Assembly (NCBI GenBank): GCA_963924555.1
Contig: OZ004593.1
Span: forward strand, 5,576,480 to 5,640,479
Direction of reading: 5' to 3'
Source of the DNA: Crambe crambe
Lineage: Eukaryota; Porifera; Demospongiae; Poecilosclerida; Crambeidae
DNA: 64,000 nucleotides
Position numbers and translations under genes: made by a program. How positions within the stretch are numbered: position 1 is the stretch's first letter; each line of letters starts with the position of its first letter. Below, piece after piece: positions 8,358 through 63,481 of this stretch. The notes beneath the pieces are model-generated. The model saw only the letters and a program-made list of their open reading frames with translations. It was not told the DNA's origin and searched no databases.

Positions 8358-11300
8358 ATGCCAATAGTTTATGAGGTAAGCTAAGTCTACTAACTAGGAT
8401 GTTGGGCTGACACTCTCTAGCGGAACTAGAAAAGCACTTCATTGGGGGTGGTTTGGTCAATGTATTGCCATGGACATTATGGTGCATAATTGTGAACATT
8501 TGAGTAAGCTGCCACTTAGCTAGTGAGGTGCAAAGCAAGCACACTCATTTTTTTTATGTTAGTGGGGAAAAACTGACCAGTTAAACACAGTAGCTAGACT
8601 AGCTGGCACCAGTATCAGTTCTTTTGATCAGATCACTGGTAGCTAGGGCAAAAAGATATTTGGATTGATTTCTGCTTTAAAATGCTTGCATGTGAAACCT
8701 GGGGAGTCTGGGATGCCAAATGCTTCACTCTGACTCTAAGAGCTAATACTTTGTTATCATGTTGTAGCTGATGTGTACACAATTAATCTGTGTGTATTTT
8801 AATGGTTCAATTATACATGTACAAATATTAGTTTTGTATGCATAACCTCTTTAGTGGTTTATTTTTTCTACTGAGTCACTTATATAATTGTGGGGGATCT
8901 CTCACTAGAAACAATTATGTGCACTGAAAGATCTCAATCAAAATAATTTTCATATGGGCCTCACTATTCTATGGAACAGAATGGAACGGTTCCAGGACTC
9001 TATTTCATGGAATGGAATTTTCACTGCTCACGCGTACGTATGCACATGCACTACAGTTCGGGGTCCCTAGGATGGTGTCATAGCTAATCTTCTTGTCATT
9101 GATGTGCTCTTTCTCTCTGAGATAAGTGAAATTATGCTCCTATTATTCAAAATTCCCAATAATTATGTACAATAATAAAATTAATGACAAAAACAAGTGT
9201 TGTATTGATAACAGATCTTCGTATAATTTTCTAATGATCAGACTATGTTCAGGTGCGTAGCCAGGATTTTATCATTATGGGGTGCTTATATCCGTGCAAA
9301 AATTTTTGCCTAGCCATGCCCACTTCCAATAACCACACCTTTTTGGATAAACTGTGCCCACTTGATGTAGCACTAGCTAACCAAGATCTGAATTGTAGAA
9401 ACGAGGGTGACATCTGGCAAACTCTTCTACTACTTCCTCTATGTTGACATGTGAATGTGGAGCACGGTTATCGTCCTAGTCAGCCCCGATAGGTAGCTTC
9501 AGATTATAGTGCAGTAATGTACGTAGCTCTATGTATGTATATGTAGGGATTGTTGGCTGGATATACAGAACAAAGATGATCCCATTTCCATCGTTCATCC
9601 CTACCCTTGTTTCCTTACTTTATCGAGCAATGGTCATCCCTACACTCATTTCACGGAAATGTTTTTCCCTTATTATAATTGCATTGTTATGTTATTGATA
9701 ATAGGGATACATGTTCAAGAGTGTACTCCTTTTTCTTCTTCCTATCGTCTCATCTCAAGGTATGTCACTGTGTGAGTACGTACTTACGTACACATAGTGG
9801 TGTGTCCAGTCATGTGATTGTCATGATGATTAGCACACGTAGTGTTACCAGGTCCCATGTAGCCAATACTGGGGAGTTGGCTGAAGAGTTGACCCTAACA
9901 TTGTATGCATACTGTATAGTGTGAAATTTGGAATAAATTTTTCGTGGTTTTGAAGTGTGGAGAGGCTTTGGCACATTATGCTCAAAAAATTAGCTATTAT
10001 GCTATTCTTCTATGCTCAAAAAATTATGCTCATGTGCAATGTCATTATGCTCATGTGCAATGTCATTATACTCATGTGCACTGGTCTTATTGACCTTCGA
10101 CCTCAGTAATCTGACCGGGTAATTGCATCAGCTGATACTGAAAGACAGTTTACTGATAAACAAGCTAGCTCACTGCAAGACTATGTAGAATTGAGTGTCA
10201 TGCTAGAGTACAATAGCCATTCATTGAAATGTACTCCTATGAGTGCTGATTATGCTCAATTATGTTTGCTTTCTCAAAATTATGCTGCCAAGGCCTAAGT
10301 GTATAGTTTTTGTGTGTATCCACGAAATCCAAGTTTTACCCGCTATGCAGTATTGATCATAGAGTTGGCTGGCATTCTTTTTTCTCCATTTAGTCTATCC
10401 TGAACGCTACTCATTTCCCACTGGTGCACCAGTGAATGGATCATCTCCTACTGGAAGTTGTTCTAATGTTAGTATGGATGACACTATGACAACCTGTCTA
10501 CAACCAACCTCCAGTGTTCTGTTTGATGGGCGTGTCCCCACACTCACTGGACTAGATGGTAACACGTGGGCAAGTCAACTACTCACTATTAACGAAATAA
10601 AATCCTTGACTACTGTCACCTTTGACTTCACTGACACACCAGGCTATGACAGAGTAGAGAGAGTTGAGGTGGTGATGTTCAACTGTCCACAGTGGGGGGT
10701 AGCATCTACTAACATCCAACTCGATGGGGCCACTGCTAGAGGTCAGCCCTTCACTTTATTTGATTTAACTTCTGTTAGTTCCCTCACCTCCTGTGAGTCT
10801 CTTGTGAGAGTGTGTTTATCAGCCTTCATTTCTCGACCACTAATTCGTCTACGATTCTCCCTTAACCGGGACTCTGACTGGGTGCACCTTGCTGAGGTGA
10901 CCTTCTATCCCAGAGGTTCCATCTGTCCACCAAATGTCATCTTCAATCCACCTACAACATCACCACCAGATACAACACCACCACCACCACCAGATACAGT
11001 GCCACCAACTACACCTACAGCACGATTGGATACAATATCATCAGGTAGCTAATAATAACTACTAAAAATAATGTCATCCTCAATCCACCACCACCAGATA
11101 CAATACCACCTACCAGGGTTCTATCTACTTGGGGGGATTAACCATAAAGACGTGCAAGCGCACAGATATTCTCCCCCCTATTAAAAATCCCCATGTCACC
11201 AACTACAATGTCACCAACTATATCTGCCATCACCTCAAATAGTAAGTGCATGTGCATATTAGTGCTATGGTAGTCGTGGACCTTCACCTTCTGAATCATT

Positions 11301-11906
11301 AGCATGAGACAGCCCCATAATTCAGCTAGCCTATATTTAGCTAGCTATGTGTAGTACAAAATCTGAGGGATGATATAAATGTGCAGGCTCATGCATGCCA
11401 TGCATTTAGCTATACATAATATTATAGCTGCCTTGCTTGATATCACACACTTCATTTATAGTAGCTCTAGCTATAGCTACCAATTATGGTATTCCATGTT
11501 ATTCTTTGAAAATGTGTTTCATAACTGTCAGTAGCTCTTAGTCATTATCACTTTATACTCTGTAGACTCTGTCCCTACCACAAGTTCTTCCTTGTCTGAA
11601 GTAAGTGGATGTTCTACCACTCCTGTCATTTTGTCAGCTGTCATTGCAGTCATTGTCACAGCTCTACTGGCCACAGTCATCTTCGTGGTGGTACAGGTTG
11701 TGATCTGCAAGTGTCATCCAAAGTTTAGACCCGGAGGGACTAAGACAGGAGCCTCAGCAGGAGGGGAGGGGCAGGAATATGAGCAGGTCGATGTGGAAGG
11801 TGTTGCTGTGAGGGGTGGCAATGATGCTACGTATATGGAAGTCGGAGAGCAAGGAGGTATCACCATTGAACTCAAGGAGAATGAAGCATATGGCACTTAC
11901 ACTTAA
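8358..11906 (+). CDS. Receptor-like type I membrane protein, unit 1 (354 aa)
   Basis: Exons are 8358-8375 (MPIVYE), 9705-9759 (GYMFKSVLLFLLPIVSSQ), 10394-11044 and 11566-11906, with phases 0, 1, 1 at the three junctions. E1+E2 form a signal peptide. The ectodomain (about residues 25-240) has six cysteines shared by the family (GSC, TTC, FNCPQW, TSCES, VRVCLS, SICPPN), an NGSS glycosylation site and the core VTFDFTDTPGYDRVERVEVV. A Pro/Thr stalk (TTSPPDTTPPPPPDT) follows. E4 gives a helix around VIAVIVTALLATVIFVVVQV, a KCHPK stop-transfer, and a tail with YEQV, YMEV and AYGTYT. The E3 donor is unusual: I use CAG|GTAGCT at 11044. The family's usual linker and GTAAGTG donor also survive at about 11190-11243, after a ~150-nt disruption, so E3 may end elsewhere. 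The function is unknown; the domain could be a galactose-binding-like beta sandwich, unproven. Confidence 0.75.
8376..9704 (+). other. Intron 1 of unit 1
   Basis: Non-coding. Much of it (8400-9060) is shared with intron 1 of units 2, 4, 5, 6 and 7 ('gcaaagcaagcacactcatt', 'gatctctcactagaaacaat'). 9251-9320 looks like a transposon-end fragment (gtgcgtagccagga). 9543-9675 resembles one arm of the foldback MITE at 956-1735. Confidence 0.55.
9976..10085 (+). repeat. Short tandem repeat of an ~21-nt 'attatgctcatgtgcaatgtc' unit
   Basis: About three imperfect copies lie in the E2-E3 intron of unit 1. Shorter versions occupy the same intron of units 2, 3, 4 and 6. Confidence 0.7.
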
Positions 11907-15900: not shown

Positions 15901-18499
15901 CTAGTCCTTTTAAAAGACTAACTTGTTAGAAAAGTTGGAGCCTATGAGACAAAGCAAATAACCTCACAAAATTGGGGGGGGGGGGGGGGGGGGGGGGGAG
16001 GGAACTGGCTGGAAATTGTCCAGCTCCTATTCTGAGCAGTAGTAATGAATTCTTTGGACAAGCTTTAGTTAACGACTTATGCTTACTGGATTGATTGTTT
16101 ACATGCATACACATACATACATACATACATACATACATACATACATAATACATACATACTGTACATACATGGTGTTTCCATCTAAAATTAAAGCAGAGGA
16201 CTTTGTTCACGCTGACATTATAATTGCATTGTTATGTTGTTGATTATATTATAGGGATACATGTTCAAGAGTGTACTCTTTTTAAGTATCTTTCTTCTTC
16301 CTCTCATCTCATCTCAAGGTATGTCACTGTATGAGCTGTACTTATTTCCCCAGGCTAATTAAGTCCTTGAGTCCTTTACCTGGGCTTGCTCACTAGTCTA
16401 ACTTGAGTCCGGCCTTGGCTTTTACTAGTCAGGCTTTACTGTAAAGTTATATATTAATACTGAAATTTTAGTAGAAATGGATGACTGGTGTGTGCAGTCA
16501 TGTGATTAGTCATGATGATTGGCACACATAGTGTGGTGAGTAGTGTTACCAGGTCCCTACTTGGTTTGCTTATTCCACACTGGGGAGTTGGCTGAAGAAT
16601 TACGTATAGTGGAATAAAATTTTTGTGGTTTCGTGGTTTCATGGTTTTGAAAATTAGTTCCTCTATGCTCAAAAAATTATGCTCATGTGTAAAGTTATTA
16701 TGCTCATGTGCAATGTCATTATGTTTATGTTGTGCACTGATCAGTAAATCTGACCCTGGATTTGTGGTAATTGTGTTCATGGTTTGTGAATCAGCTGATA
16801 CTGAAAGAGTTGTTGTTTTTTTTTAATGCTAAAAAGATAGTTTACTGATAAACAAGCCAAGCTTGCATTCTTTTAAAAAATTTTCTCCCCACATTCTGTT
16901 TAGTCTATCCTGAAAGATACACATTTCTCACCGGTACATCAGTGAATGGATCATCTCCTACTGGAAACTGTTCTGATGTTAGTATGGATGACACAATGAC
17001 AACCTGTCTGCAACCAACCTCCAGTGTTCTGTTTGATGGGCATGTCCCCACACTCACTGGACTAGATGGTCACATGTGGGCAAGTCAACTACTCACTATA
17101 AACATATCACGATCCTTGACTAATGTCATCTCAACTACTTTTGTCATCTTTGACTTCACTGATACACCAGGCTATGACAGAGTACAGAGAGTTGAGGTGG
17201 TGATGTTCAACTGTCCACAGTGGGGGATAGCATCTACTACCATCAACCTCTTAGTAGCCACAGCTAGAGGTCAGCTCTTCACTAATCTTGGTTTCATCTC
17301 TGTCAGTTCCCTCACCTCCTGTGAGTCTCTTGTGAGAGTGTGTTTACCAGCCACAGTTTCTCGACCACTAATTGGTCTACAATTCACCCTTGACCAGGAC
17401 TCTGACTGGGTGCACCTTGCCGAGGTGACCTTCTATGCCAGAGGTTCCACCTGTCCACCAAATGTCATCCTAACACCACCACCTACAACCACAATGTCAC
17501 CTACAACCACAATGTCACCAACTACAACTGCCATCACCTCAAATAGTAAGTGCATGTGTGTTAGTGTATGATGGTAGTTGTGGAACCTTCACCTTCTGAA
17601 TCATTAGGGTGAGGCTAACCTCACTGTGACCATAATTCAACTAGCCTATATCTAGTTATGTGTACTAGTACAAAATTTGAGGGATGATAAATTGTGCAGA
17701 CTCACACCATGTGCATGCATGCATTTATGCATACGTTGCTAGCTGCCTTGCTTGACTTCATGTAATCGTTAGAATATGAGTGCCAGGGTTTACCAAGTCC
17801 CGAGGGTGAGGGTTATTTATAATCATAATACCCATGGCACCCATGTCTAACTTAGCTAAGGTGAGTATAGACTAGGCTAGCTACAGTAAAGTAACTTTAC
17901 CATGACACTTTAGCAGAGATTATACATTTCCATGGACTATATGACTCATATTACCCATCGTTCATGATGATGAGCATTATGGCTTACTGTGGCCCTTTGA
18001 TCTTGCCCACGCATGGGATATAATTAGCATGTGTTATATATTATAGCTGTTGCTACAGCTGCCAAGTATGGCATTTCCTATCTTCAATGTGAATTTATGA
18101 GGACTGTCACTAGCTCCTAGTCATTATGATCATACTGTAGACTCTGTCCCTACTACAAGTTCCTCCCTATCTGATGTCTGTCCCTCAACTTCTTCCTGTT
18201 CCAGCACTCCAGCCATCTTGTCAGCTGTCATTGCAGTTATTGTCACAGCTCTACTGGCCACAGTCATCTTTGTGGTGGTGCAGGTTGTCATCTGTAAGTG
18301 CCATCCAAAGTTCAGACCTGGAGGGACTGAGACGGGAGCCTCAGCAGGAGGGGAGGGGCAGGAGTATGAACAGGTTGATGTGGAAGGTGTAGCTGTGAAG
18401 GGTGGCAATGATGCTAGGTACATGGAGGTTGGAGAGCAAGGAGGTAACACCATTGAACTCAAGGAGAATGAAGCATACGGCACTTACACTTACACTTAG
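12942..18499 (+). CDS. Receptor-like type I membrane protein, unit 2 (360 aa)
   Basis: Exons are 12942-12959 (MPTDHE), 16255-16318 (GYMFKSVLFLSIFLLPLISSQ), 16904-17545 and 18141-18499. The junctions keep phases 0, 1, 1 and there are no internal stops. The ectodomain has all six family cysteines. It differs from its siblings by a five-residue insertion (STTFV) near NVISTTFVIFDF. The stalk is short with two TTTMSPTTT-like repeats. E4 gives SCSSTPAILSAVIAVIVTAL as helix start, then YEQV, YMEV and a longer end, YGTYTYT. Intron 1 is 3.3 kb, lengthened by a MITE at 13671-14289 and repeats. If intron 3 were retained, translation would end at SKCMCVSV, giving a soluble form; this is only a possibility. 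Confidence 0.8.
13671..14289. mobile_element. MITE with perfect 75-bp TIRs and 8-bp target duplication
   Basis: The ends (CTAGTCTGGCGTAGCGGCG...) are exact reverse complements over about 75 nt. Flanks are GGCTAACA (13663-13670) and GGTTAACA (14290-14297), an almost exact 8-bp duplication. The empty site is present at about 57895-57915 ('tctggctaacacaggctct'), which fixes the borders. 8-bp duplications fit hAT or P superfamily elements. It has no transposase of its own. Confidence 0.85.
15974..15998 (+). repeat. Poly-G tract (25 nt)
   Basis: Uninterrupted run of 25 G in intron 1 of unit 2. Similar runs occur in the array at 38557, 38641 (C), 51835 (C), 56233 (C) and 56681. Confidence 0.95.
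16104..16163 (+). repeat. CATA tetranucleotide microsatellite
   Basis: About twelve copies of CATA with one slip, just upstream of E2 of unit 2. Confidence 0.9.
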
Positions 18500-19796: not shown

Positions 19797-19849
19797 TAAG
19801 ATCAACGCCCTGACTTACTGGCTATAGTCATCAAAATTCTGCTTTGGCC

Positions 19850-21209
19850 TAGTGAAGAGTCCAATGAAGAGGCGCTTGGTCAAGATAGCAATGAAGTGAA
19901 GAATGAAATTGAAGATGAAGAACAAGTTCACAATGAGTTCTCCTACTCGATCATTACATGTAAAGATATTGAAGAGGTTTCCCTCACTCCTAATGCCAAT
20001 TCACTTCAAGAACACAGTAAACCTGATGAAGAAACATCTCTGCATGAGAATGAGCTCTGTGCACATGCAGTGGTGAATAAATCAGCCAAAACAGTGAAAG
20101 AGAAGGGGATCTATTCATCGGAGGGTTTGAGCAACCGAGAAGGAGATAGTGGGAACTCTACCAATGAAAAACTCATCGTGACTGCTACACAGGCGAGTGG
20201 TGAAGAGCAAGAGGACGACTATGATACTATTTACAGAGAACCTATAGAGCCCTCCCTTTTCACTAATTTTGTTAAGGAAAGTAACGATATGGCCACTGAC
20301 AAGGCAAAGGAGAATGGAAGTGAAGAATCGGTGTATGCTTCCATATATGACATACCTGCCATTTCAGCTACTAATACTGTGAAGTTGCTGGAAATCAAAC
20401 CTGAAAATATTCACGAGATTAAAACACTGGGTACTGGGAATTTTGGTAAAGTTATTTTGGCTGACACAGTGGGTTTAAGCATGAAAGATTTGAAGATGAG
20501 TGACATGGATGATGATAAGACGAAATCGATTCGTGTTGCTGTAAAGCAGTTGAAGAAAAGTGCATCCACTTCAGGGAGAGAAGCTTTTGATAAAGAGTTG
20601 AAGTTCATGTCACGTTTAAACCACCCGAACGTTATCCGAATTTTGGGGGCGTGCACTCTAGATGACCCTTTCATCGTGATAGAATATATGGAGAAGGGAG
20701 ACCTCAACGAGTACCTGCTGAACTTTGACACCATCTCACCTGGGAATGGCCCCCCTGATGGTTTCACTATTAGCATGGGCACACTGACCAACATGTCAGC
20801 ACAGATTGCCGCAGCTATGGCATATCTCTCCTCTCACAACTTTATTCATCGCGATCTTGCCACTCGTAACTGCCTTGTTGGATTGAACCTTCAGATCAAA
20901 GTGGCAGATTTCGGAATGAGTCGAAGCCTCTATAAATCTCATTACTATGTGATCCAAGGTTACGCTGTCCTACCAGTCCGATGGATGGCAAGAGAGTGTT
21001 TTTATGGTAAATTTTCAGCAAAAACAGATGTCTGGGCATTTGGGGTGACCATGTGGGAGATCTTTGCGCTGGCAAAGGACATTCTATACAAAAGACATGG
21101 ACGATAGGGAAGTCATTGATGATGCTACCAAAAAGATGGAAGTCAAAAAGATTATTCTCAGGGTGTTTACGATGTGATGCTTCTGTGTTGGAAGGAAACC
21201 CCCAAAGAG
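19850..21209 (+). pseudogene. Receptor tyrosine kinase fragment, DDR-like, frameshifted
   Basis: Open for over 1.2 kb without introns. It covers a juxtamembrane region with YDTIYREP and YASIYDIP, then a tyrosine kinase domain: P-loop GTGNFGKV (20431), VAVKQLKK (20536), HRDLATRN (20846), DFGMSR (20909), LPVRWMARE, TDVWAFGVTMWEIF. The spacing, RILGACTLDDPF and SHYYVIQGYAVLPVRWM point to the discoidin domain receptor group. The frame breaks near 21090 (DILYKRHGR, stop). A later frame still reads QGVYDVMLLCWKETPKE up to a GTAAGC donor at about 21209, so at least two frameshifts lie in the C-lobe. No signal peptide, ectodomain or TM exon is attached. It begins just after a SINE-like tail. Most likely a broken copy of a sponge RTK gene; assembly errors could mimic the frameshifts. 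Confidence 0.8.
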
Positions 21210-21354
21210 TAAGCAACTTCTGAAAAACTTCACAATACCCTGTCATTATTGATTGTGAGGTATGTATTGTTATTATCATAACTGTCTTTTTTAAGAATGA
21301 ATGAATGGATTGTTGTTACTGCACATTATGATAAACTGCAATTGTTTTCACATT

Positions 21355-22296
21355 CTGCTTATTATTCTCAGCTAACATGATAAAAATTCAATAGAATTAG
21401 TTCTCATAAAATTAGCTTATGAAACAAACCACCAACGTTTCGACCAGAATACTCTAGCCTTCATCAGGGTGATACAAAAAATGCACACAGAAACGTCCTT
21501 ATATAGCTACGCTCGTTATCTAGACAACGCACATGCATACGCCTATGGATATTATATTATAGCATGCCAATACCTGAAGTCGTAAACACTATTTCCCTAA
21601 GGCTTTAAGCGTAGAAACCCAGCAACCTTGAAGTTCTAGACCTACATCCCTATTAAAACGCTGCTCTTCTGAAGATAAACCAATATGAAGCGCTTCTTCA
21701 GGGGTTAGTTTGAGATCCAAACTTTCTAAGATTAAGGATAAGTTACCATCTGATCAAAATTCTAATGTTGTTTATAGGGTACCTTGTAGTTGTGGGAAAT
21801 TTTACATTGGTGGAACGGTGAGAAGGCTGGAAGCTAGGCTGAAGGAGCATAAGGAAGCTTGCCTACGAGGAGAACAAGAAAAATCTGCTGTTGCTGATCA
21901 TGCCTGGAGTAATCATCATCCTATATTATGGAAGGAAGCTTCAGTTGTAGATCAAGCTAGGACTAGGAAGGAGCTGCTTCTAAAAGAAGCGCTTCATATT
22001 GGTTTATCTTCAGAAGAGCAGCGTTTTAATAGGGATGTAGGTCTAGAACTTCAAGGTTGCTGGGTTTCTACGCTTAAAGCCTTAGGGAAATAGTGTTTAC
22101 GACTTCAGGTATTGGCATGCTATAATATAATATCCATAGGCGTATGCATGTGCGTTGTCTAGATAACGAGCGTAGCTATATAAGGACGTTTCTGTGTGCA
22201 TTTTTTGTATCACCCTGATGAAGGCTAGAGTATTCTGGTCGAAACGTTGGTGGTTTGTTTCATAAGCTAATTTTATGAGAACTAATTCTATTGAAT
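21355..22296 (+). mobile_element. Penelope-like element remnant with 312-bp inverted arms
   Basis: Arms at 21386-21697 and 21985-22296 are reverse complements, apparently without mismatch. Between and into the right arm lies a GIY-YIG endonuclease segment. The element is bracketed by TGTTTTCACATT (21343-21354, and 22296-22307), a plausible target duplication. Both ends carry CTGATGAAGG...GGTCGAAACG. Penelope-like elements are known for rearranged or inverted terminal copies and for a GIY-YIG domain after the reverse transcriptase. The RT itself is absent here. Confidence 0.8.
21710..22093 (+). pseudogene. GIY-YIG endonuclease part of a Penelope-like element
   Basis: About 127 residues. KDKLPSDQNSNVVYRVPCSC leads into GKFYIGGTVRRLEARLKEHK, the GIY-YIG core in Penelope form (here F-Y-I-G with conserved Arg and the H..K helix), then ADHAWSNHHPILW. 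It is the C-terminal piece of a polyprotein; the reverse transcriptase that normally precedes it is missing, so the element is 5'-truncated. The same linker (KDKLPSDQNSN) recurs at about 50530. The 3' end of the ORF lies in the right inverted arm, so the left arm contains its reversed copy. Confidence 0.8.
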
Positions 22297-22307
22297 GTTT
22301 TCACATT

Positions 22308-35260: not shown

Positions 35261-35520
35261 ACAAGTGAGCGCAAAAAATTTCTTCTAAATAAAAAGGTTA
35301 AGTAGGGATAGCTTAAAATCTAGCTGGGCTATATAATGTACTGCAGCCTCATATGAAAACAATCCCTACTTTTACAACTGCCATAGCTAGCTATAGGTAG
35401 CGGATGTAAATGTAGGGATTGTTTTCATATGAGGCTGCAGTACATTATATAGCCCAGCTAGATTTTAAGCTATCCCTACTTAACTTTTTTATTTAGAAGA
35501 AATTTTTTGCGCTCACTTGT
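35261..35520. mobile_element. Palindromic MITE, copy 4 (260 bp, complete)
   Basis: Begins ACAAGTGAGCGC and ends GCGCTCACTTGT. The arms are near-perfect reverse complements. Confidence 0.85.
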
Positions 35521-36936: not shown

Positions 36937-36941
36937 TACAC

Positions 36942-41824: not shown

Positions 41825-41900
41825 GGGTGTGGCTTATGATTTATGGCTTATGCGTGTGCTGCAACAAGTATCTGTGACGTGCATAGCTAACTTCTTCAAG
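41825..41900 (+). promoter_or_regulatory. Promoter region of unit 4
   Basis: GGGTGTGGCTTATG lies at 41825-41838. TGTGACGTGCATAGC (here with a 3-nt insertion before CTTCTTCAAG) follows, adjoining the ATG at 41901. Confidence 0.6.
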
Positions 41901-47900: not shown

Positions 47901-49969
47901 ATTTGAGGCTTTCTTGTAGGTTCTCTTGCTACCTTTTCAGAAACTTTTTACCCTCTCTGCTCTCACTATTCAAAGCCTTGCTGTCTTTCAAACGATTGTA
48001 TCATAGATTCTACTCTCTTTTTTTTTGCTGTTCATGTTATTTTTCTTGCCTCCTGTGCTTTCTCAGATGATCGTTAACTTGCCTGCTGTCTCTTGCAGTC
48101 ATTAAACCCTAAAGGTCACGTGCATGCGTAGATATGGACAAACATACCACCATCATAGTCACCTCCAGCACTGCGCCTCGGCACTTTGGCGCCCAGGCAA
48201 AAATCATGTAATTAATGCTCATGTATTATGCTCATGTGTACTTAGATTTCAGGATGGTTGTCTGTAAGGAATGAGAAATAGGTAGTGGCTTACAAGGACC
48301 TAAGAAACCTGATCCTTTCATGTCCTATACAATCCATGCAGTTGTAGAATAAATTTTTCCCACCTATTCCCCCCACACCTTCGTGACAACCAACCTGCAA
48401 TGTTATTATGCTCATGTACACTGGTATTATTGACCTTGACCTTTAACCTCAGTAATCTGACCCTGGGTTTGTGGTAATTGTGTTCATGGCTTATGAATCA
48501 GCTGATACTGAATTTTTTTTTCCAATTCTAAAAGGACTGAGATAAACAAGCTAGCTCACTGCAAGATTATGGAAAATAAATATATGATTGCTCAATTATG
48601 CTAGCCTTATAAATCAATGTTAAAATTATGCTGGCACAATGTGCCAGTGTGAACCCTTGTTTTTGTGTGTCCAAGTTATGCCTGCTAACTATGCAGTATT
48701 ATTTCGTGGTGATCAGTTTAGCTTGCATTCTTTTAAAAAAATTTTTTTTCAGTCTCTTTAGTCTATCCTGAATGCTACACATTCACCACTGGTACATCAG
48801 TGAATAGATCAACTCTTACTGGATACTGTTCTAATGTTTGTATGGCTGGCACAATGACGACCTGTCTGCAACCAACCTCCAGTGTTCTGTTTGATGGGCG
48901 TGTCCCCACACTCACTGGACTAGATGGTGACATGTGGGCAAGTCAACTACTCACTGTAAACACAATGGAATCCTCGACTAATGTCATCTTTAACTTCACT
49001 GACACACCAGACTATAACAGAGTAGAGAGAGTTGAGGTGGTGATGTTCAACTGTCCACAGTGGGGGGTAGCATCTACTATCATCACCCTTACAGGGGCCA
49101 CTGCTAGAGGTCAGCCCTTCAACACTTTTGATTCAATCTCTGTTAGTTCCCTCACCTCCTGTGAGTCTCTTGTGAGAGTGTGTTTGTCAGCCTTCGTTTC
49201 TCGACCACTAATTGGTCTACAATTCATCCTTGACCAGGACTCTGACTGGGTGCACCTTGCCGAGGTGACCTTCTATGCCAGAGGTACTACATGTCCACCA
49301 AATGTCATCCTCAATCAAACTACACCACCACCACCAGATACTACAATGTCACCAACTACAACTGCCATCACCTCAAATAGTAAGTGCATATGCATGGTTA
49401 GGGTGAGGCTTCAGCCTCATTATCCTCATTGTGACCATAATTCAGCTAACCTATGACCCTATGTCTGCTAGCTATGTGAGTACAAACTGTGCAGGTGTGC
49501 ATACATACACCTGCTTCATTTATAATGTTAGCTAATATAATGGCTGTATAGCTATGTATATGGTATTCCCTATTTTAAAATGTATTTATGAGGACTGTCA
49601 CTAGCTTTTAGTCATTTATACTCTGTAGACTTTGTCCCTACCACAAGTTCTCCCCTGTCTGAAGTCTGTGACTGTTCCAGCACTCCAGCCATCTTGTCAG
49701 CTGTCATTGCAGTCATCGTCACAGCTCTACTGGCCACTGTCATCTTTGTGGTGGTGCAGGTTGTCATCTGCAAGTGCCATCCAAAGTTCAGACCTGGAGG
49801 GACTGAGATAGGAGCCTCAGCAGGAGGGGAAGGGCGGGAGTATGAGCAGGTTGATGTGGAAGGTGTAGCAATGAGGGGTGGCAATGATGCTATGTACATG
49901 GAGGTTGGAGAGCAAGGAGGTATCACCATTGAACTTAAGGAGAATGAAGCATATGGCACTTACACTTAG
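41901..49969 (+). CDS. Receptor-like type I membrane protein, unit 4 (346 aa)
   Basis: Exons are 41901-41918 (MPTVHE), 46431-46494 (GYMFKSVLFLSIFLLPLVSSQ), 48762-49379 and 49629-49969, phases 0, 1, 1. The ectodomain is of the first subtype (MAGTMTTCLQPTSSVLFDGR) with an additional Cys (NVCMAG) and an NFTDT site that is a potential N-glycosylation site not present in the others. The stalk is short (TTPPPPDTTMSPTTT). The tail has YEQV, YMEV and AYGTYT. Intron 1 (4.5 kb) contains the segmental duplication. Intron 2 (2.3 kb) is inflated by a mariner-like MITE and a hairpin element. The ORF is intact. Confidence 0.8.
43517..43579. repeat. 18-bp stem hairpin
   Basis: AGTTAGAACACGGTAGTC at 43517-43534 is the exact reverse complement of 43562-43579, with an added TGGTG/CACCA extension of the stem. 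Confidence 0.85.
45126..46035 (+). repeat. Segmental duplication in intron 1 of unit 4
   Basis: Second copy of 37527-38495, with small indels. Confidence 0.8.
46231..46260. repeat. Perfect 14-bp palindrome
   Basis: CTTCTGCCCCGTTA and TAACGGGGCAGAAG are separated by TG. It is unusually GC-rich for the region and lies 170 bp before E2. Confidence 0.9.
46895..47426. mobile_element. Mariner/Tc1-like MITE with TA duplication
   Basis: The left end TA-CCGTATAGCCGGAAATAT and right end reversed TA-CTGTATAGCCAGAAATAT pair over about 22 nt and end in TA. No transposase is present. It lies in intron 2 of unit 4. Confidence 0.65.
47448..47612. mobile_element. Short inverted-repeat element
   Basis: GAATCTTGAAA...GTCAAGCGACAACTGTG is mirrored by CACAGTTGTCGCTTGAC...TTTCAAGATTC. 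It directly follows the mariner-like MITE. Confidence 0.65.
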
Positions 49970-50548: not shown

Positions 50549-50930
50549 TAATGTTTACAGGGCATGGAACAAGTAAGAACCTTTATGAGCAGTCGTACTA
50601 CAAAGTATGTGGAAGAGCCATGCTTCCCATCAGATGGATGGCATCTGAGAGCTTCTTTGGGCATTTCTCAGAGAAGACTGACGTGTGGTCGTATGATGTG
50701 GGAGATATTTACGCTCTGCAAGTGTCAACCGTACGAGGAGATGGAAGATCAGGAGATCATTCAGGATGCTATTAAGGGGTATGGCTACTGAAAGGCCAGA
50801 GGTGTGCCCTGAGGACGTTTATAGTGTGATGCTTTGATGCTGGGAGTATAAGATACAGGAGCGTGCATGCTTCAATGAAGTGTTCAACTCATCAGCAACT
50901 ATCCATCATAAGAATACCTCATGCTTGCTT
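50549..50930 (+). pseudogene. DDR-like tyrosine kinase C-lobe fragment
   Basis: KNLYEQSYYKVCGRAMLPIR then WMASES(F)FGHFSEKTDVWSY correspond to the activation loop and following helix. A frameshift near 50695 moves to MWEIFTLCKCQPYEEMEDQE. A second shift leads to TERPEVCPEDVYSVML, stop, CWEYKIQERACFNEVF. It lacks the N-lobe and catalytic loop. It is most similar to the kinase pseudogene at 19850, but from a different paralog (YEQSYYKV against YKSHYYVI). Confidence 0.8.
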
Positions 50931-52916: not shown

Positions 52917-55478
52917 GCAAAATGCAAATCATCTAGCTGTCACTGAGCAGTCACATGCACCTGGTCAAGTCAGGATGCCTGTACACTAAGCAGGCACTAT
53001 GAGCCAGCAGGAGAACTGGCTATCTCTTTTCAGCAAGTGGTGTGGGCACCTGAAGTCCCAACTGATATTTTTGGAAATTCCAGGTACCCATTTTCAGCTG
53101 GATGGACTGGTGGCATGGTAATGCTGGTGAATTGAAAAGGATGAATAAACACTATATGTCACTGGTGGGACTCGAACTCATGGTCTCCCGCTTACAAGCT
53201 CAGTACAAACCACTTAACTGCCAGTGATTCCACACACACGCATGCACGCACGCACGCACTGTGTAATATACACACACAATATTCCAACAATGCTGCAATC
53301 TTTTTTTTTCTAGTGAGAATTACAATGGAACCTCCAAATAGTGGACACACATGTGACCCATCCTTTTCTCCTTTGAAGAGAGCCTCTTTTGGAGTATTTT
53401 AGATTGTTCTTTGTTGAGAGCTTATTGAAGTTACCACTATATTCCTATTTGTGATCAGGGATTCTGTCACAACTGTGGGCTGGCAGGCCTGGGAGGAAAA
53501 CTAGAAACTCAGAAACAGAGGACTTTTCAATCTTGTACTTGCCACATAAAAATCTTTCTAGTAGTACTACACTACAGCCAACTGAATATACACATGCACA
53601 TATGCATGCACATGCATGAAAGCAAGTTCTAGTGGCCCTCGTGCTTCACACAAGAAACTAGAGCTCATAGAGTTCAATGCCCCACTGTAAAGTGTCTGGT
53701 TGAAGCATTAATATTACTAGGGAGGGCACTAGCCTACGTCGTTCAGCTCCCAATTTGGTAAGGATCATTAACTTTAATGCATAATTAATATGTACACTAA
53801 AACTATCAGTGCACATGCAACCTACATCTGGCTCTGGCTCTGGCTCTGGCAGGATAGCCAGCAAGAAAAACATGCATTCAAGCTACCAAGAAAGCGTTCT
53901 TTATGCTATCAGCATTATGGCTTCAAGAAAATGTTGAATAAGTAGTTAGCTATTACAAGTTTTCAAAATTTTCTACCACAGATAACTATATATAGTGAAT
54001 CCAACCGATTGCTTAACACTTGTGCAGCTGAAGAAATATGTAGTGGTATATACAGTAACTGGGACCAGTCTGTTGACTACCTTTCCAAGACCAAAAGAAT
54101 TATAGATTACACCCCAGGGCCTAATAGATATGTCCATACTTAGCATTATTATTATTATTTGAACACATTATATAGGGGTACGATTTTAATGCAGCACTCA
54201 TTTTGAGCGTCTTCATTCCTCTTGTCTCATCTCAAGGTATGCACTTCAAGTAGCTAGCTATGATAACAGATACACAATAGTTTAAGTTAGCTATGATGTA
54301 AATCTCTCCTCTTTCAATAGTCTATCCTGAACGCTACACATTTCTCACTGGTATATCAGTGAATGGATCATCTCCTACTGGAAACTGTTCTAGACTGCAG
54401 AATGATAGCACAATGACAACCTGTTTTCAACCGCCAAACTCTGGTGTTCTGTTCGATGGGCATGTCCCCACACTCACTGGACTAGATGGTGACATGTGGG
54501 CAAGTCAACTACTCACTATAAACACAATGTATTCCTTGACTAATGTCATCTTTGACTTCACTGATACACCAGGCTATGTTGGGATACAGAGAGTTGAGGT
54601 GGTGATGTTCAACTGTCCACAGTGGGGGATAACATCTACTACCATCACCCTCACAGGGGCCACAGCTAGAAGTCAGTCCTTCAATGTTTTTGCTCAAACC
54701 TCTATTAGTTCTCTCACCTCCTGTGAGTCTCTTGTGAGAGTGTGTTTATCACGCCAAGTAACTCGACCACTAATTGGTCTACAATTCACCCTTCACCAGG
54801 ATTCTGATTGGCTGAACCTTGCTGAGGTGACCTTCTATGGCAGTGGTACCACCTGTCCACCAAATATCATCCTCAATCCACCTACAACACCACCACCAGA
54901 TTCAACAACCACCTCGAATAGGCATGGTAGGTTTCAGCCTCATTATCTTCATTGTGACCATAATTCAGCTAGCCTATGACCCTATGTCTGCTAGCTATGT
55001 GAGGTCAAACTGTGCAGGTGTGCATACATGCACCTGCCTTGTTTGCTTCATTTATAATGTTAGCTAATATAATGGCTGTAGCTAGTATATATTCCTTATT
55101 TAAAAATCTATTTATGTGGACTGTCACTAACTCTTTATATACTCTGTAGACTCTGTCCCTACCACAAGTTCTTCCCTGTCTGAAGTCTGTGAATGTTCCA
55201 TCTTGTCAGCTGTCATTGCAGTCATTGTCACAGCTCTACTGGCCACAGTCATCTTTGTGGTGGTGCAGGTCATTATCTGCAAGTGCCATCCAAAGTTCAA
55301 ACCTGGAGGGACTGAAACAGGAGCCTCAGCAGGAGGGGAGGGGCAGGAGTATGAGCAGGTTGATGTGGAAGGTGTAGCTGTGAGGGGTGGCAATGATGCT
55401 AGGTACATGGAGGTTGGATAGCAAGGAGGTATCACCATTGAACTCAAGGAGAATGAAGCATATGGCACTTACACTTAG
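51347..55478 (+). CDS. Receptor-like membrane protein, unit 5, tail truncated (318 aa)
   Basis: Exons are 51347-51364 (MPTDHE), 54176-54236 (GYDFNAALILSVFIPLVSSQ), 54321-54926 and 55150-55421, with ancestral coding continuing to 55478. E2 has no Met (MFKSV became DFNAA), so only E1 supplies a start. With E1 the frame is open, which is the best support for the four-exon model. The usual E3 donor GTAAGT is lost; GTAGGT six nt downstream keeps the phase. E4 has a TAG at 55419 (YMEVG, stop), removing the last ~19 residues and the AYGTYT motif but leaving YEQV and YMEV. The Ser/Cys-rich linker before the helix is also shortened (CECSILSAV). The ectodomain is of the second subtype. It is either a shorter functional variant or an early pseudogene. 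Confidence 0.7.
51451..51889. mobile_element. Inverted-repeat element with C25 tract
   Basis: ATAGGCATAATTTTGGTCAG...GGGG at the left is mirrored by CCCC...CCTGGTTCCTATGCCTAT at the right. It has no transposase. A 25-C run lies at 51835-51859. Confidence 0.5.
52862..53233 (-). repeat. tRNA-derived SINE with (TG)n tail
   Basis: Read on the minus strand from about 53233: a tRNA-like head with A-box-like TGGCAGTTAAGTGG and B-box GAGTTCGAGTCCC, and even a 7-bp acceptor-like pair (TCACTGG/CCAGTGA). It continues into an unrelated body (GAAAATGGGTACCTGG) and ends in (TG)n, seen on + as (CA)n at 52870-52912. The T stem does not pair, so it is not a functional tRNA. Confidence 0.7.
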
Positions 55479-56369: not shown

Positions 56370-59300
56370 ATGCCAACAGTTCATGAGGTAAGCTAAGTCT
56401 ACAAGTCAAGATTATTAACTAAAATGTTGGGCTGACACTCTCTAGCGAACTAGGAATTATAATAGCTGCCACTTAGTAAGGTTCAAAGCAAGCACACTAT
56501 GTTAGTGGGGGAAAACTGCCATGTTAGGAACAGTTAAACACAGTAGCTATATTAGTTGAGCTGGCATCTCAATGAAACAGTTTCAGTTCATTTGATCAGA
56601 TTACTGGTAGCTTGTTATAGCAAGAAGATATTTGATGGATCGCTGCCTTAAAATGTTTGCATGTTCAGTTTGTGAAACCTGGGGGGGGGGGGGGGGGGGG
56701 GTGGGGGGGTGGGATGCCAAATGCTTCACTCTGACTCTAGAGCTAATGACATACTTTCAGTTTATCATTTATCATGTTGTAGCTGATGTGTACACAATCT
56801 GTGTGTATTTTAATGGTACATGTACTAATATTGTATGCATAGCCCCTTTAGTGGTTTATTTACTTCCACTGAGTTACGTATAATAATAATTGTGGAGGAT
56901 CTCTTACTAGAAACAATTATACTTGATGACTGTGCACTAAAAGATCTCAATCAAATTTTCATGCCCAGATCTTCATGGGAATTATTGGAACTCCAAATAA
57001 TTTTTTCTTACTGTATGCCTGTGCCCTTGCTCACTGAAGTTGGTCTCCCCCACACCCCCCATTGTTGGATAATAATTCAAATAATTTTTATGTCATTATT
57101 GAACATAACCATGAAAATAACAGCGAAAAATTTATGGTAGGCACAACAGAGACTGAGTCACAAAAACAACCACAAGGCCACAATTACGCAATTACGATAA
57201 CTGACCACAGACCACAAGAATGAATTGCACAGATAGCAATATTCGAACTATGATTACTGCAATTTTTTTAAAATTACAATGGAACCTCCTAATAATGGGT
57301 TCGTCCTTTATAAGGAGCCTCTTTTGGAGTATAGGGTTTATCCTCTTTCAAATGAGGTTCCACTCAATTTCCACTGTATTCTCAGGGATTTTGGGCTGGG
57401 AGGGAAACTAGGAACTCTGAAACAGAGGATTTTTCCAATTCTTGTTGCACATGGCCACATTTCTAATTATAATCTTTCTAGTAGATCAACTACACTATGT
57501 ATACACATGCACATGTGTTTTAGTGGTCCTTGATCTATGATATGCTTCACACAAGAGACCAATCCAGATAGAAATATGGCAATTGGGACCAAGACAAAAG
57601 GATCATAGATCACATCCCAGGCCCCAATAGATGTGTCCATGCTTAACATATTGTTTAATACGTTAGGTTTTGTACAAGTTCAAAGCAGCACTCATTTTGA
57701 GTATCTTCCTTCCTCTTATCTCAAGGTAGAGCTAATAACACATGCATAGTACTAACAGGACCATACAAATTCCTTCTCAGTGGCCAAGCTGCAAGATTTT
57801 ATTGTAATTCCCTCCCAGTCTATCCTGAATGCTACACATTTCCCACTAGTACATCAGTGAATGGATCATCTCCTACTGGAAACTGTTCTAAGTAGTCTGG
57901 CTAACACAGGCTCTTTGGGCCAAAAGATCAGGTTAAACTGTTTTTAGTTGTGATTGATGAGCAGAGTACCAAATGTGTATGGTTTCACTGTAATCTTGTC
58001 TCTAGGGAAAATCCGGGGGGGGGGGGGGGAAGTCTAGGGAAAACCCCTAACTATCTACATGCAGTATATAGGTTTGTCCATGTATCAAAGAAAACAACTT
58101 CCTCCACCTTGGCCTCCTTAAACCATTGGCTCATGAGTCATGATGCTACCCCTTAGATCTTACTTTTTTTCATGTGTTACCCCCTAATAGGGCAAGTGAA
58201 TCAACTGCCCATCCTAACCACATTAGTAGGGGAAATAATTACCCTAATGAAGCTAGTTGGCAACCACCTATTTAGGGACTGAAATGAAGAGGTTAAGAGA
58301 TTAGCTACTGTTAGTGGGTAATTCTAGTCTACTAGCTGTGATTATCTGGACACAGCACTGCACTTGATGATTCTTCGATCAAACAAAGCATTAACCTTGG
58401 AAATTGTCAAGCTGCTATTCTGAGCAGTAGTAGTGGACGAGCTATTAATAACAGTCACCATTATTATGACTTGTGCTAATTGGATTGATTGTTTACATAC
58501 ATACATATGTGTCTAAAAGAGAACTTTTACACTGACATTATAATTGCATTATTATGTTGTTGATTATATTGTAGGGATACATGTTCAAGAGTGTACTCTT
58601 TTTGAGTATCTTTCTTCTTCCTCTCGTCTCATCTCAAGGTATGTCACTCTGTGAGCACGTACTTATTTCCCCAGGCTGAGTCCCTTACCTGGACTTGCTG
58701 ATGACTTCACTAGTCTGGCTTGAGTCCGGCCTTGGCTTTTACTAGTAAAGGCTTTGCTGTAAAACTTGATGAAATTTTAGTGGAAATGGATGACTGGTGT
58801 GTGCAGTCATGTGATTATCATGATGATTAGCATGGTGATTAGCACACATAGTGTGGTGAGTAGTGTTACCAGGTCCTAAGTTATTCCACACTGGGGAGTT
58901 GGTGGCTAACATTGTGTATAGTGTGAAATTTTGAATAAAATTTTCGTGGTTTCAAAGTGTGAATAGGCAATTAGCTATTATGCTATTCTTGTATGCTCTG
59001 AAATTCATATCATTATGCTCATGTGCAATGTCATTATGCTGCACTGGTATTATTGACCTTTGACCTCAATAATCTGACCCTGGGTTTGTGATAATTGTGT
59101 TCATGGTTTATGAATCAGCTGATACTGAAAGAGTTTTCTTTTTCAATGCTAAAAAGACAGTTTACTGATAAACTGCTCACTGCAAGACTATGTAGAATTG
59201 AGTGTCATGCTAAGCATATTCAAAAATTATTATTTTTTTGATGATTATGCTGAGTGCTGATTATCCTTTCCTTGTACAACAATGTATGCTCAAAATTATG

Positions 59301-60745
59301 CCGGCATAATGTGCCAAGGCAAGGCCCAAGTGTGAACCACATAATTCCGTATTATTTCGTGGTGATCATAGAGTTGGCTTGCATTCTTTAAAAAATTTTT
59401 CTCCCAACATTCTGTTTAGTTTATCCTGAATGCTACACATTTTTCACTGGTATATCAGTAAATGGATCATCTCCTACTGGAAACTGTTCTAATATTAATG
59501 TGACTGACACAAGGATAACCTGTCTACAACCAACCTCCAGTGTTCTGTTTGATGGAAGTGTCCCCACAATCACTGGACTAGATGGTGACATGTGGGCAAG
59601 TCAACTACTCACTATAAACACAACACAATCCTTGACTTTTGTCATCTTTGACTTCACTGATACACCAGGCTATGTTGGGATACAGAGAGTTGAGGTGGTG
59701 ATGTTCAACTGTCCACAGTGGGGGATAGCATCTACTACCATTGTTCTCTCAGGGGCCACTGCTAGAGATCAACCCTTCTTTAATGTTGCTTCAACCTCTG
59801 TTAATTCCCTCACCTCCTGTGAGTCTCTTGTGAGAGTGTGTTTATCAGCCTTCATTTCTCAGCCAGTAATTGCTCTACAATTCGTCCTTGACCAGGACTC
59901 CGACTGGGTGCACCTTGCTGAGGTGACCTTCTATCCCAGAGGTTCTACCTGTTCACCAAACATCATCCTAACACCACCACCTACAACATCACCACCAGAT
60001 ACAATGCCACCAACTACAACACCACCACCAGATACAATGCCACCAACTACAACACCACCACCAGATACAATGCCACCAACTACAACGTCACCAACTACGA
60101 CTGTGAATAGTAAGTGCATGTGTGTTAGTGTATGATGGTAGTTGTGGACCTTCACCTTCTGAATCACTAGGGTGAAGCTACGTAGCCTCACTAGTACAAA
60201 ATTTGAGGGATGAAAAAACCATGCAGACTGCTTTTATTTTCTACATAGCTGTCTTGCTTGATATATTACACTTCACTTATAATGTTACACTAGCTATGTA
60301 GCTGTATGGCTATGGCTGGTATTTCCTATTCAGTTTGTACGTATGAAGACTGTCACTAGCTCCTAATTAATGATTATCACTTTATACTGTAGACTCTGTC
60401 CCTACTACAAGTTCCTCCCTGTCTGAAATTAGTCCCTCGACTCCTTCCTGTTCCAGCACTCCAGCCATCTTGTCAGCTGTCATTGCAGTCATTGTCACAG
60501 CTCTACTGGCCACAGTCGTCTTTGTGGTGGTGCAGGTCGTCATCTGTAAGTGCCATCCAAAGTTCAGACCTCGAGGGACTGAGATGAGAGCCTCAGCAGG
60601 AGGGGAGGGGCAGGAATATGAGCAGGTCGATGTGGAAGGTGTGGATGTGAGGGGTGGCAATGATGCTACGTACATGGAAATTGGAGAGCAAGGAGGTAAC
60701 ACCATTGAACTCAAGGAGAATGAAGCATATGGCACTTACACTTAG
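56370..60745 (+). CDS. Receptor-like type I membrane protein, unit 6 (374 aa)
   Basis: Exons are 56370-56387 (MPTVHE), 58575-58638 (GYMFKSVLFLSIFLLPLVSSQ), 59420-60109 and 60393-60745, phases 0, 1, 1, with no stops. It is the longest copy because the stalk has three tandem PPPDTMPPTTT-type repeats (about 59990-60090), where unit 3 has one. The ectodomain has the six cysteines and an altered N-terminal loop (SNINVTDTRITCLQ) with a further potential glycosylation site (NVT). The tail has YEQV, YMEI and AYGTYT. Introns 2 and 3 and the 3' flank are close to unit 3. Intron 1 contains a broken extra copy (57667-57890). Confidence 0.8.
56388..58574 (+). other. Intron 1 of unit 6
   Basis: Common intron-1 sequence with a G21 run (56681-56701), repeats shared with 44340-44530, a broken E2-E3 fragment (57667-57890), then a block homologous to 14298-14790 with a G15 run (58015-58029). 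Confidence 0.5.
57667..57890 (+). pseudogene. Broken E2-E3 fragment of the receptor family
   Basis: 57667-57725 resembles E2 of unit 5 (KFKAALILSIFLPLIS) but ends two nt out of phase. 57819-57890 is the first ~70 nt of E3 (YPECYTFPTSTSVNGSSPTG), cut off where a repeat block begins. It shows that an eighth unit once existed here. Confidence 0.75.
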
Positions 60746-61736: not shown

Positions 61737-61801
61737 GGGTGTGGCTTATGGCTTATGCGTGTGCTGCAACAAGTTTCTGTGACGCGCATAGCTTCTTCAA
61801 G
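61737..61801 (+). promoter_or_regulatory. Promoter region of unit 7
   Basis: GGGTGTGGCTTATG lies at 61737-61750. TGTGACGCGCATAGC and CTTCTTCAAG adjoin the ATG at 61802. It is intact although the gene behind it is broken. Confidence 0.6.
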
Positions 61802-63481
61802 ATGCCAACAGATCATGGGGTAAGATAAGTCTACTAGTCAAGATTATTAACTAGAATGTTGGCTGACACTCTCTATAATAGCTGCCACTTAGTGAGGTTC
61901 AAAGCAAGCACACTCATTTTTTTTATGTTAGTGGGGAAAACTGCTATGTTAGGAACAGTAGCTATATTAGTTGAGCTGGCATCTCAATGAAACAGTTTCA
62001 GTTCATTTGATATGAAACAGTTTCAGTTCATTTGATCAGATTACTGGTAGCTATTAGCTATACGAAGATATTTGATGGATCGCTGCCTTAAAATGTTTGC
62101 ATGTTCAGTTTGTGAAACCTGGGGGGATGCCTAATGCTTCACTCTGACTCTAAAGCTAATAACACACTTTCAGTTTATCATTTATCATGTTGTAGCTGAT
62201 GTGTACACGATCTGTGTGTATTTTAATGATACATGTACAAATATTGTATGCATAACCCCTTTAGTAGTTTATTTATGAACACTACACATTTCCCACTAGT
62301 ACATCAGTGAATGGATCATCTCCTACTGGAAACTGTTCCAGACTGCAGAAAAAAAAAGATAGCATAATGACAACCTGTTTTCAACCGCCAAACTCTTATG
62401 TTCTGTTTAATCGGCATATCCCCACACTCACTGGATTAGATGGTGACATGTGGGCAAGTCAACTACTCACTATAAACACAATACAATCCTTGACTGTTGT
62501 CATCTTTGACTTCACTGACACACCAGGCTATTTTGGGATACAGAGAGTTGAGGTGGTGATGTTCAACTGTCCACAGTGGGGGATAGCTTCTACTAATATC
62601 CTCCTCACAGGGGCCACAGCTAGAAGTCAGCTCTTCAACCCTTTTGCTTCAACCTCTGTTAGTTCCCTCACCTCCTGTGAGTCTCTTGTGAGAGTGTGTT
62701 TATCAATCCACATAACTCGGCCACTAATTGGTCTACAATTCACCCATCACCAGGATTCTGACTGGCTGCATCTTGCTGAGGTGACCTTCTATGGTGGAAA
62801 TCCTAACTGTCCACCAAATGTCATCCTCAATCCACCTACTACAACACAAACACCAGATACAACAACATCACAACTACAACTGCCAGCACCATCACCTCAA
62901 ATAGTAAGTGCATGTGCATGGTTAGGGTGAGGCTTCAGCCTCAATATCCTCATTATGACCATAATTCAGCTAGCCTATGATCCTATGTCTGCTAGCTATG
63001 TGAGTACAAACTGTGCAGGTGTGCATGCATGCAGCTGCCTTGTTCGCTTCATTTATGTTAGCTACAATATGTAATAGCTATAGCTATGTATATGGTAGCT
63101 ATTCCCTATTTTAAAATGTATATATTTATGAGGACTGTCACTAGCTCTTATAGTTTGTAGATTTTGTCCCTACCACCCTGTCTGAAGTCTAGCACTCCAG
63201 CCATCTTGTCAGCTGTCATTGCAGTCATTGTCACAGCTCTACTGGCCACTGTCATATTTGTAGTGGTGCAGGTCATTATCTGCAAGTGCCATCCAAAGTT
63301 CAGACCTGGAGGGACTAAGACAGGAGCCTCAACAGGAGGGGAGGGGCAGGAATATGAGCAGGTCGATGTGGAAGGTGTGGCTGTGAGGAATGGCAATGAT
63401 GCTATGTACATGGAGGTTGGAGAGCAAGGAGATAACACCATTGAACTGAAGGAAAATCAAGCATACGGCACTTACACTTAA
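61802..63481 (+). pseudogene. Receptor-like unit 7, signal exon deleted
   Basis: E1 (61802-61819, MPTDHG) is followed by only ~450 nt of intron-1 sequence, which fuses directly into E3 at about 62277 (EHYTFPTSTSVNGSS). E2, intron 2 and the E3 acceptor are gone, and a TAG stands upstream in frame. From there E3 (to 62903) and E4 (63161-63481) remain open. Both E3 and E4 have switched to phase 0 at their shared junction, so TAI-like stalk residues now read QLQLPAPSPQI, but the helix and tail (YEQV, YMEV, AYGTYT) stay in frame. Without a signal peptide it is probably non-functional, unless an unseen exon supplies one. A poly-A expansion added KKK in LQKKKDSIMTTC. Confidence 0.75.

Follow-up and report, generated by a model that had tools for sequence, protein, structure and literature searches.

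What kind of system is encoded by the tandem array of receptor-like genes found in a 64,000-nucleotide stretch of the genome of the sponge Crambe crambe (contig OZ004593.1, positions 5,576,480 to 5,640,479; G000:C16:5576480-5640479, in a genome of 143.1 Mb and 119 contigs)? In an earlier, model-made reading of its letters alone (the sequence-only reading), seven same-strand units with a variable ectodomain and a constant tail were described, and the ectodomain was left unplaced. Based on the analysis of the whole stretch, hereafter the window, and of related copies elsewhere in the genome, it was considered fairly probable that the window is part of a large family related to the discoidin domain receptors (DDRs), made up of non-self recognition receptors with tyrosine-phosphorylation outputs.

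All seven units (U1 to U7) were found, every one on the plus strand. With up to three mismatches allowed, the core motif of the ectodomain occurred nine times against 1.17 expected (0 of 100 shuffles reached as many), and seven of these occurrences were the seven ectodomain exons (E3), all on the plus strand; the other two, with three mismatches each, were located at 52455 (+, outside E3) and 59443 (-, antisense within the E3 of U6). U1, U2, U3, U4 and U6 each consisted of a signal-peptide exon, E3 and an exon for the transmembrane (TM) helix and tail (Table 1), with phase-1 introns and similar acceptor and donor contexts, except for the E3 donor of U1. The shared structure and phases had been anticipated, yet since E3 follows the signal exon immediately and in frame phase, three exons suffice and the separate exon E2 that had been assumed is not needed. 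Signal-peptide exons (MFKSVL..SSQ, donor CAAG/GTATG) were present in five of the seven units, and none was found for U5 or U7 when looked for. As the short DNA pattern of this exon was by itself within chance (15 matches vs. 9 expected), the evidence lies in five like copies sharing one donor in the right place. U5 was broken, without signal exon, with the GTAAGT donor lost and a tail that stops early, and U7 was broken as well, without signal exon and with the E3 acceptor lost. The window holds five complete genes, as had been proposed, and two pseudogenes (U5 and U7). The array had been taken to start at 8358, but the first exon found starts at 9711, and 8328-9125 is a stretch common to 41867-42713. 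Each intact gene is predicted to make a type I membrane protein, which would be displayed at the surface.

The cluster proved to be far larger than the seven copies first reported, which were all present, and to include a broken kinase exon at about 19800-21257. A genome search with the U1 ectodomain, in which 150 of 191 candidates were scored, listed 152 matches, distributed over C16, C21, C13, C12, C20, C1 and C18. A second ectodomain class (E3-II), 29-36% identical to U1, gave in its own genome search 44 rows above the first row of class I (E3-I), some of them pieces of one copy, and the profiles of both classes aligned with each other (probability 99.8%, E 7e-30). Between 5.38 and 6.07 Mb of C16, 102 ectodomain places were mapped (71 E3-I and 31 E3-II, fragments included), counts that are approximate because split pieces of one copy were entered once and several weak tail or kinase pieces were left out. 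Tails were of one type (A) at approximately 5.38-5.72 Mb, a run of six E3-I plus kinase occupied 5.728-5.762 Mb, and a run of a second tail type (B) occupied 5.787-5.877 Mb. A three-gene pattern, E3-I/B, E3-II/A and E3-II/kinase, recurred at 5876.8-5882.9, 5949.8-5956.8, 5979.0-5985.9 and 5998.2-6005.1 kb, some of its members carrying a stop codon. Among the best 120 public matches listed for each ectodomain class and for the kinase, homologues of all three were located on many further public contigs, a distribution from which the sponge-specificity suggested in the sequence-only reading does not follow; the E3-II and kinase lists, the latter incomplete, had 11 public contigs in common by approximate proxy matching, one of which (1711867) carries the window sequence itself. 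P0326, a kinase of the cluster family, is labelled in public data as a protein of a Proteobacteria metagenome-assembled genome, which suggests that a host contig was binned with bacterial sequence. At L034 (4978-7001, on C12), class-II ectodomain genes adjoin open frames with an NCxHF motif that by eye resemble an LRAT/NlpC-type domain.

Three cytoplasmic outputs were found beside these ectodomains. The A tail, that of the window, follows the TM helix with EYEQVD..YMEV..NEAYGTYT. Of its 98 matches in the genome, 28 lie between 5.44 and 5.72 Mb, with 90-98% identity. The B tail (43 matches) is long, shares one open frame with E3, and carries YSSL, YSTV and repeated LYAQVDKKK, ending in VYSVVNKPSAPPVPLKS. 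The third output (K) is a tyrosine kinase, a domain that the seven window receptors themselves lack. For each output, the closest ectodomain located upstream on the same strand, at a distance of up to 4.5 kb, was taken as its partner, and weak and broken rows were counted too. By this measure, A tails (n = 49) were next to E3-I in 38 cases and E3-II in 11, B tails to E3-I in 27 of 27, and kinases (n = 31) to E3-II in 16, E3-I in 11 and neither in 4, an arrangement from which we infer that E3 is spliced to the A and kinase exons. The kinase of a cluster copy (L039) had DDR1 or DDR2 as its best 11 distinct PDB sequences (257.5-244 bits; best non-DDR 221), and the open frame of the remnant in the window (19800-21104) gave the same result (217.8 vs. 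179.7 for the best non-DDR). A profile of 41 homologues, chosen from the best 120 listed, scored 369.8 for DDR vs. 307.4 for TrkB, the best 11 distinct PDB sequences again being all DDR; an EGFR chain scored 334 bits with no single stretch passing. K476 and H579-R580-D581 (P0242 numbering), which we take to be the catalytic residues, were invariant in the 41 homologues, and D599/F600 were conserved in at least 90%. By best match, the cluster kinase is of the DDR class. The consensus of immunoreceptor tyrosine-based inhibitory or activation motifs (ITIM/ITAM) is [SIVL]xYxx[IVL] or paired YxxL/I, and an ITIM/ITAM receptor was rejected: in the motifs inspected (QEYEQV, ATYMEV and EAYGTY in the A tail; QLYAQV and DVYSVV, only some of the tyrosines, in the B tail) the residue two positions before the tyrosine was by eye Q, A, E or D.

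Evidence for recombination within the cluster came from L012 (C16:5495669-5499301, 3.6 kb), which was 98-100% identical to U6 over its 5' flank, the signal exon and E3 and only 88-96% beyond them, and 97-100% identical to U3 across the intron and tail; this switch means that a U6 ectodomain was joined to a U3 tail, one clear ectodomain/tail recombinant. The tails of U3, L012 and L026 were 100% identical in DNA, and exchange or conversion between copies does occur. Pairwise E3 and tail identities were weakly correlated (0.26). The TM and tail of six class-II loci showed 77-94% DNA identity to class-I tails (main match of approximately 174-315 nt), and their ectodomains share about one third of residues with class I. 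An ectodomain tree was built on 87 chosen rows (49 genome loci, the seven window units and 31 of 240 public proteins; L021, L041, L045, which has a stop, L050, L060, L063 and five duplicates left out), its bootstrap not being settled. In it, E3-I copies of this genome formed one clade (99/99), the neighbors L067 (A) and L068 (kinase) were sisters at 100/98, and A labels within class II were unclustered (6 changes vs. 5.9 shuffled). Compared with their best public proteins, the E3s of U1, U4 and U5 were identical over about 152 residues, that of U7 was 99.4% identical and those of U2, U3 and U6 82-89%; accordingly, no clear second haplotype of the seven E3s was seen for this one genome among 360 public proteins.

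Ectodomain and tail differed sharply in the selection that they have undergone. For the seven units, Nei-Gojobori nonsynonymous (dN) and synonymous (dS) values were 0.149 and 0.158 in E3 (ratio 0.94; dN > dS in 9 of 21 pairs) and 0.042 and 0.192 in the tail (ratio 0.22; 0 of 21 pairs), which at similar dS bears out the variable ectodomain and constant tail. Codon site models M2a and M1a were compared with our own code on a FastTree tree, with naive empirical Bayes site posteriors, using 27 class-I copies for E3 (tail types A, B and kinase and C21 copies together; 182 codons) and 14 A-tail rows for the tail; five of 30 loci from which no E3 was extracted (L002, L016, L023, L024 and L030) and five loci duplicating window units were left out. 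Twice the log-likelihood difference (2dlnL) was 240.8 for E3, with 18% of sites in a class of w 4.3, and 0.0 for the tail. An artefact of the home-made model was rejected, the largest 2dlnL in 13 null simulations being 6.9. The signal was also obtained for the seven window units (73.7), the five intact ones (51.3) and the 20 copies outside the window (180.6), and of the 13 sites whose posterior exceeded 0.9 in the window units, 10 recurred in those 20 copies (P9, I69, K70, T74, Q109, D111, L122, F145, S156 and P173). Some selected sites alternated in modelled strands (107/109/111; 122/124/126), a pattern that suggests an exposed sheet face, and others occurred in runs (118-126, 144/145). E3 is under strong diversifying selection and the tail under purifying selection. 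Gene conversion alone is not the whole story of tail constancy, since tail dS is as high as that of E3 and dN about a quarter. The most economical reading of a variable ectodomain on a constant tail would be a recognition receptor. That the array consists mostly of dead repeats, transposon-rich tandem duplicates without function, would agree with two broken units out of seven and with a repeat-rich window, but is highly improbable given the low tail ratio, the presence of the A-tail motif in P0061 and P0113, homologues from other contigs, and the open frames of about 490-620 amino acids kept in most B-type copies.

The ectodomain itself could be placed at the level of fold only. Among 68 sequences, its six cysteines (C23, C35, C98, C134, C141 and C178 in U1 numbering), as counted in the sequence-only reading, were either invariant or conserved in at least 90%. 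E3 residue 5 was among the positively selected sites of the window set; U3, U4 and U6 have Cys there (YPECY; window 39637, 48761 and 59419), U1, U2 and U5 have Arg, and a further Cys is present at 27 in U4. Disulphide-linked dimers could form through these additional cysteines. The predicted fold is a jelly-roll beta sandwich, as in the galactose-binding/discoidin superfamily. For E3-I the best VIA-align match was the discoidin-like (DS-like) domain of DDR1, with Z above F5/8C and CBM32-type jelly rolls, and the same domain was at Foldseek rank 1 for the E3-II model; on these models, E3 would be kin to DDR1 DS-like in fold. The aligned counterparts of the DDR DS-like calcium ligands Asp233 and Glu361 were conserved in E3, in alignments that were insignificant. 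At the level of sequence the ectodomain stayed unplaced, as first stated, with no Pfam or sequence-profile match and chance matches only in a phmmer search of PDB. It is somewhat unlikely that these are lectin-type pattern-recognition receptors, with E3 acting like a CBM32/F5/8C carbohydrate-binding module for microbial or dietary glycans and with microbes, not conspecifics, as the source of diversity; this would be the recognition-receptor interpretation with a named ligand. E3 would share the jelly roll with F5/8C, CBM32 and other galactose-binding domains, but had no Pfam F5_F8_type_C match and a higher Z to DDR1 DS-like. A lineage-specific burst of matrix-sensing DDR-like paralogues for collagens or spongin, with ectodomain variation mostly due to relaxed selection, is distinctly unlikely: kinase class and fold resemble DDR, two window units are pseudogenes and mean E3 dN/dS is near 1, yet below it, but the selected site class far exceeds the null simulations, most window sites recur outside the window, and no collagen-binding discoidin (DS) domain was found. 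PF00754 was absent from the window E3s and had two matches genome-wide, on C14 and, below the cut-off, on C13, in a search run exon by exon, by which a split domain could be missed.

Under the recognition-receptor interpretation, an intact member would comprise a signal peptide, one DS-like jelly-roll domain, a Thr/Pro stalk, a TM helix and a cytoplasmic tail. Variable non-self ligands, microbial or allogeneic, would bind the diversified ectodomain surface and cluster the receptors, and the output would be tyrosine phosphorylation, by DDR-class kinase members or through tyrosine-tail members (A, YEQV/YMEV/NEAYG; B, repeated LYAQV). Kinase-bearing "donors" would probably phosphorylate the A or B tails of ligand-engaged, kinase-less "receivers" alongside, the phosphorylated tails would recruit SH2 or PTB proteins, and recombination within the cluster would re-pair ectodomains with tails. 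DDR1 offers a precedent: donor DDR1 is reported to phosphorylate, in trans, a receiver DDR1 that cannot signal itself, kinase-dead forms among them, and for this the TM region is needed and the receiver ectodomain is not (PMC5489314). The non-self ligand is proposed as a hypothesis, and the present data do not distinguish a microbial from an allogeneic one.

Several points weigh against this interpretation. The receptor genes are predicted from genomic DNA, and A and kinase modules were paired with E3 by proximity and not by spliced reads. On the ectodomain tree, tail labels showed partial clustering (class-I A, 5 changes vs. 15.8 shuffled; class-I B, 5 vs. 6.8; class-II kinase, 7 vs. 10.6), so that re-pairing is not free. 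Gene conversion can inflate site-model tests, although the three thirds of E3, each on its own tree, were still significant (2dlnL 30.4, 89.5 and 60.3). Foldseek places DDR1 close to many other jelly rolls, and the VIA-align top 50 for E3-II, whose model is poor (predicted local distance difference test score of 62), did not include DDR1. Pfam returned nothing on the seven window E3s except one sub-threshold Myf5 match, an E3 profile search of PDB gave one chance match, and hhalign of E3 against DDR1 DS-like was insignificant (probability 0.2% and 0.1%); a search of E3 with PF21114 (DDR DS-like) had no match, which says little, as its control matched nowhere. E3 is not joined to DDR by sequence tests alone. 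No collagen-binding DS domain was found beside E3, which directly follows the signal exon without an intervening N-terminal DS (F5/8C) domain.

Several known systems resemble the cluster in part. Vertebrate paired receptors (KIR, SIRP and PIR), of immunoglobulin (Ig) fold and with ITIM/ITAM tails, likewise place similar ectodomains on a variety of signalling tails, in genes that are clustered and positively selected, and related ectodomains on different clustered signalling modules were found here by proximity and tree; they differ in the Ig fold and in a consensus that the cluster tails do not match. Hydractinia Alr and Botryllus histocompatibility genes encode clustered, polymorphic membrane receptors of sessile animals, and differ in having Ig-like or other domains; we know of no DDR-class kinase partners for them. 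With DDR1/DDR2 the family shares a predicted DS-like jelly roll in which a long segment separates the first two core strands, a Pro-rich stalk, a single TM helix and, in kinase-bearing members, a tyrosine-rich juxtamembrane region and a DDR-class kinase, but it has no detected collagen-binding DS domain, no kinase in the window members, approximately 100 tandem places in one cluster under diversifying selection, and no ectodomain homology detectable by sequence. Eph receptors, whose ligand-binding domain belongs to the same superfamily, are also receptor tyrosine kinases with a jelly-roll ectodomain; they are expanded in sponges and cnidarians (PMC6485061), and kinase-less architectures are reported in early animals. 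However, the cluster kinase is nearest to DDR, Eph ligand-binding domains were lower in the fold ranking (EphB2 at Foldseek rank 43), and neither FN3 nor SAM domains were found in the one cluster kinase frame scanned. A Geodia cydonium receptor tyrosine kinase, cited among early immune-type cell-surface molecules (PMC12018476), has an Ig-like ectodomain and, in the accessible part of that source, is not described as a large cluster. The cluster is also relevant to the time at which DDRs originated, a question to which published sources give conflicting answers: DDR is found only in human and fly (PMC5395295), emerged in bilaterians (PMC8662651), or has orthologues in sponges and ctenophores (PMC6485061). 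Expanded immune-type families are of a known kind in sponges, given the NLR (PMC12909245) and SRCR (PMC10855680) expansions reported there. No description of this receptor family was found in the open literature, subscription papers and bioRxiv lying largely outside the search, and the open literature examined did not name the receptors behind sponge self/non-self discrimination. To our knowledge, a family of DS-like fold in which some members signal through a kinase and others lack one is a new variant.

A narrower version of the same interpretation, in which E3 binds E3 of neighboring cells for allorecognition or cell adhesion and thus gives self/non-self or tissue-sorting specificity, is unlikely. 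Positively selected sites that may share one face of a sheet, exon-scale mixing that yields a new ectodomain/tail pair, the many clustered copies, and the discrimination of self from non-self in sponge grafts (PMC5450542) agree with it; against it, the main text of an A. queenslandica graft paper contains "receptor", "tyrosine kinase" and "discoidin" zero times. With an outer domain of predicted collagen-receptor-kinase fold and with tails that are exchanged between genes, this fast-evolving family makes a strong candidate for self/non-self recognition. We advance only tentatively, as a rather unlikely reading, that the cluster is a sponge non-self or allorecognition locus in which DDR-derived, hypervariable DS-like domains would be re-paired by recombination with three outputs, namely kinase donors, kinase-less A receivers and multi-YxxV B scaffolds. 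If true, this would be an immune-type system built on a discoidin fold and receptor tyrosine kinase signalling, and not on Ig, leucine-rich repeat or lectin domains. What the family offers is a defined locus, a set of residues under selection and a donor/receiver scheme that can be tested.

Table 1. Location of receptor exons and kinase pieces in the window.
Feature	Position	Strand	Remarks
U1 exon 1, signal peptide MFKSVLLFLLPIVSSQ	9711..9759	+	donor CAAG/GTATG
U1 ectodomain exon E3: discoidin-like domain and Thr/Pro stalk	10394..11044	+	acceptor TTTAG/TCTATCC, donor CATCAG/GTAGCT
U1 TM and A-type tail exon	11566..11906	+	
U2 signal-peptide exon	16261..16318	+	
U2 ectodomain exon	16904..17545	+	
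U2 TM and A-type tail exon	18141..18499	+	
DDR-class tyrosine kinase remnant by best match (juxtamembrane tyrosines and kinase)	19800..21257	+	open to 21107; match 20343-21257 with 2 TGA, 1 TAG and 1 TAA inside
U3 signal-peptide exon	38822..38870	+	
U3 ectodomain exon	39638..40279	+	
U3 TM and A-type tail exon	40559..40902	+	
U4 signal-peptide exon	46437..46494	+	
U4 ectodomain exon	48762..49379	+	
U4 TM and A-type tail exon	49629..49969	+	
50-residue kinase fragment, 52% identical to cluster kinase	50554..50703	+	C16:5627033-5627182
U5 ectodomain exon, to end of open frame	54321..54979	+	donor lost; pseudogene
U5 TM and tail exon	55150..55421	+	early stop (ends ..RYMEVG*)
U6 signal-peptide exon	58581..58638	+	
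U6 ectodomain exon	59420..60109	+	
U6 TM and A-type tail exon	60393..60745	+	
U7 ectodomain exon	62271..62903	+	start approximate; acceptor lost; pseudogene
U7 TM and tail	63201..63481	+	other units' acceptor not found, start uncertain

Antisense open frames of at least 100 codons covered six of the seven tail exons (U2 to U7; e.g., 18130-18483 on the minus strand), probably a by-product of the codon usage of this conserved exon. Immediately downstream of the remnant kinase, two 317-base inverted arms (21382-22300), 99.7% identical, enclose an open frame (21689-22093) that by eye resembles the GIY-YIG nuclease of Penelope-like elements. Several frames at 4882-8066, on one strand or the other, by eye resemble pieces of THAP/P-element-type transposases, and overlapping frames at 35559-37042 (-) the C-terminal part of a reverse transcriptase of a long interspersed nuclear element. 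A repeat family of 250-500 bases, with self-inverted copies 87-95% identical, was present at 1734-3242 and 34680-35527.

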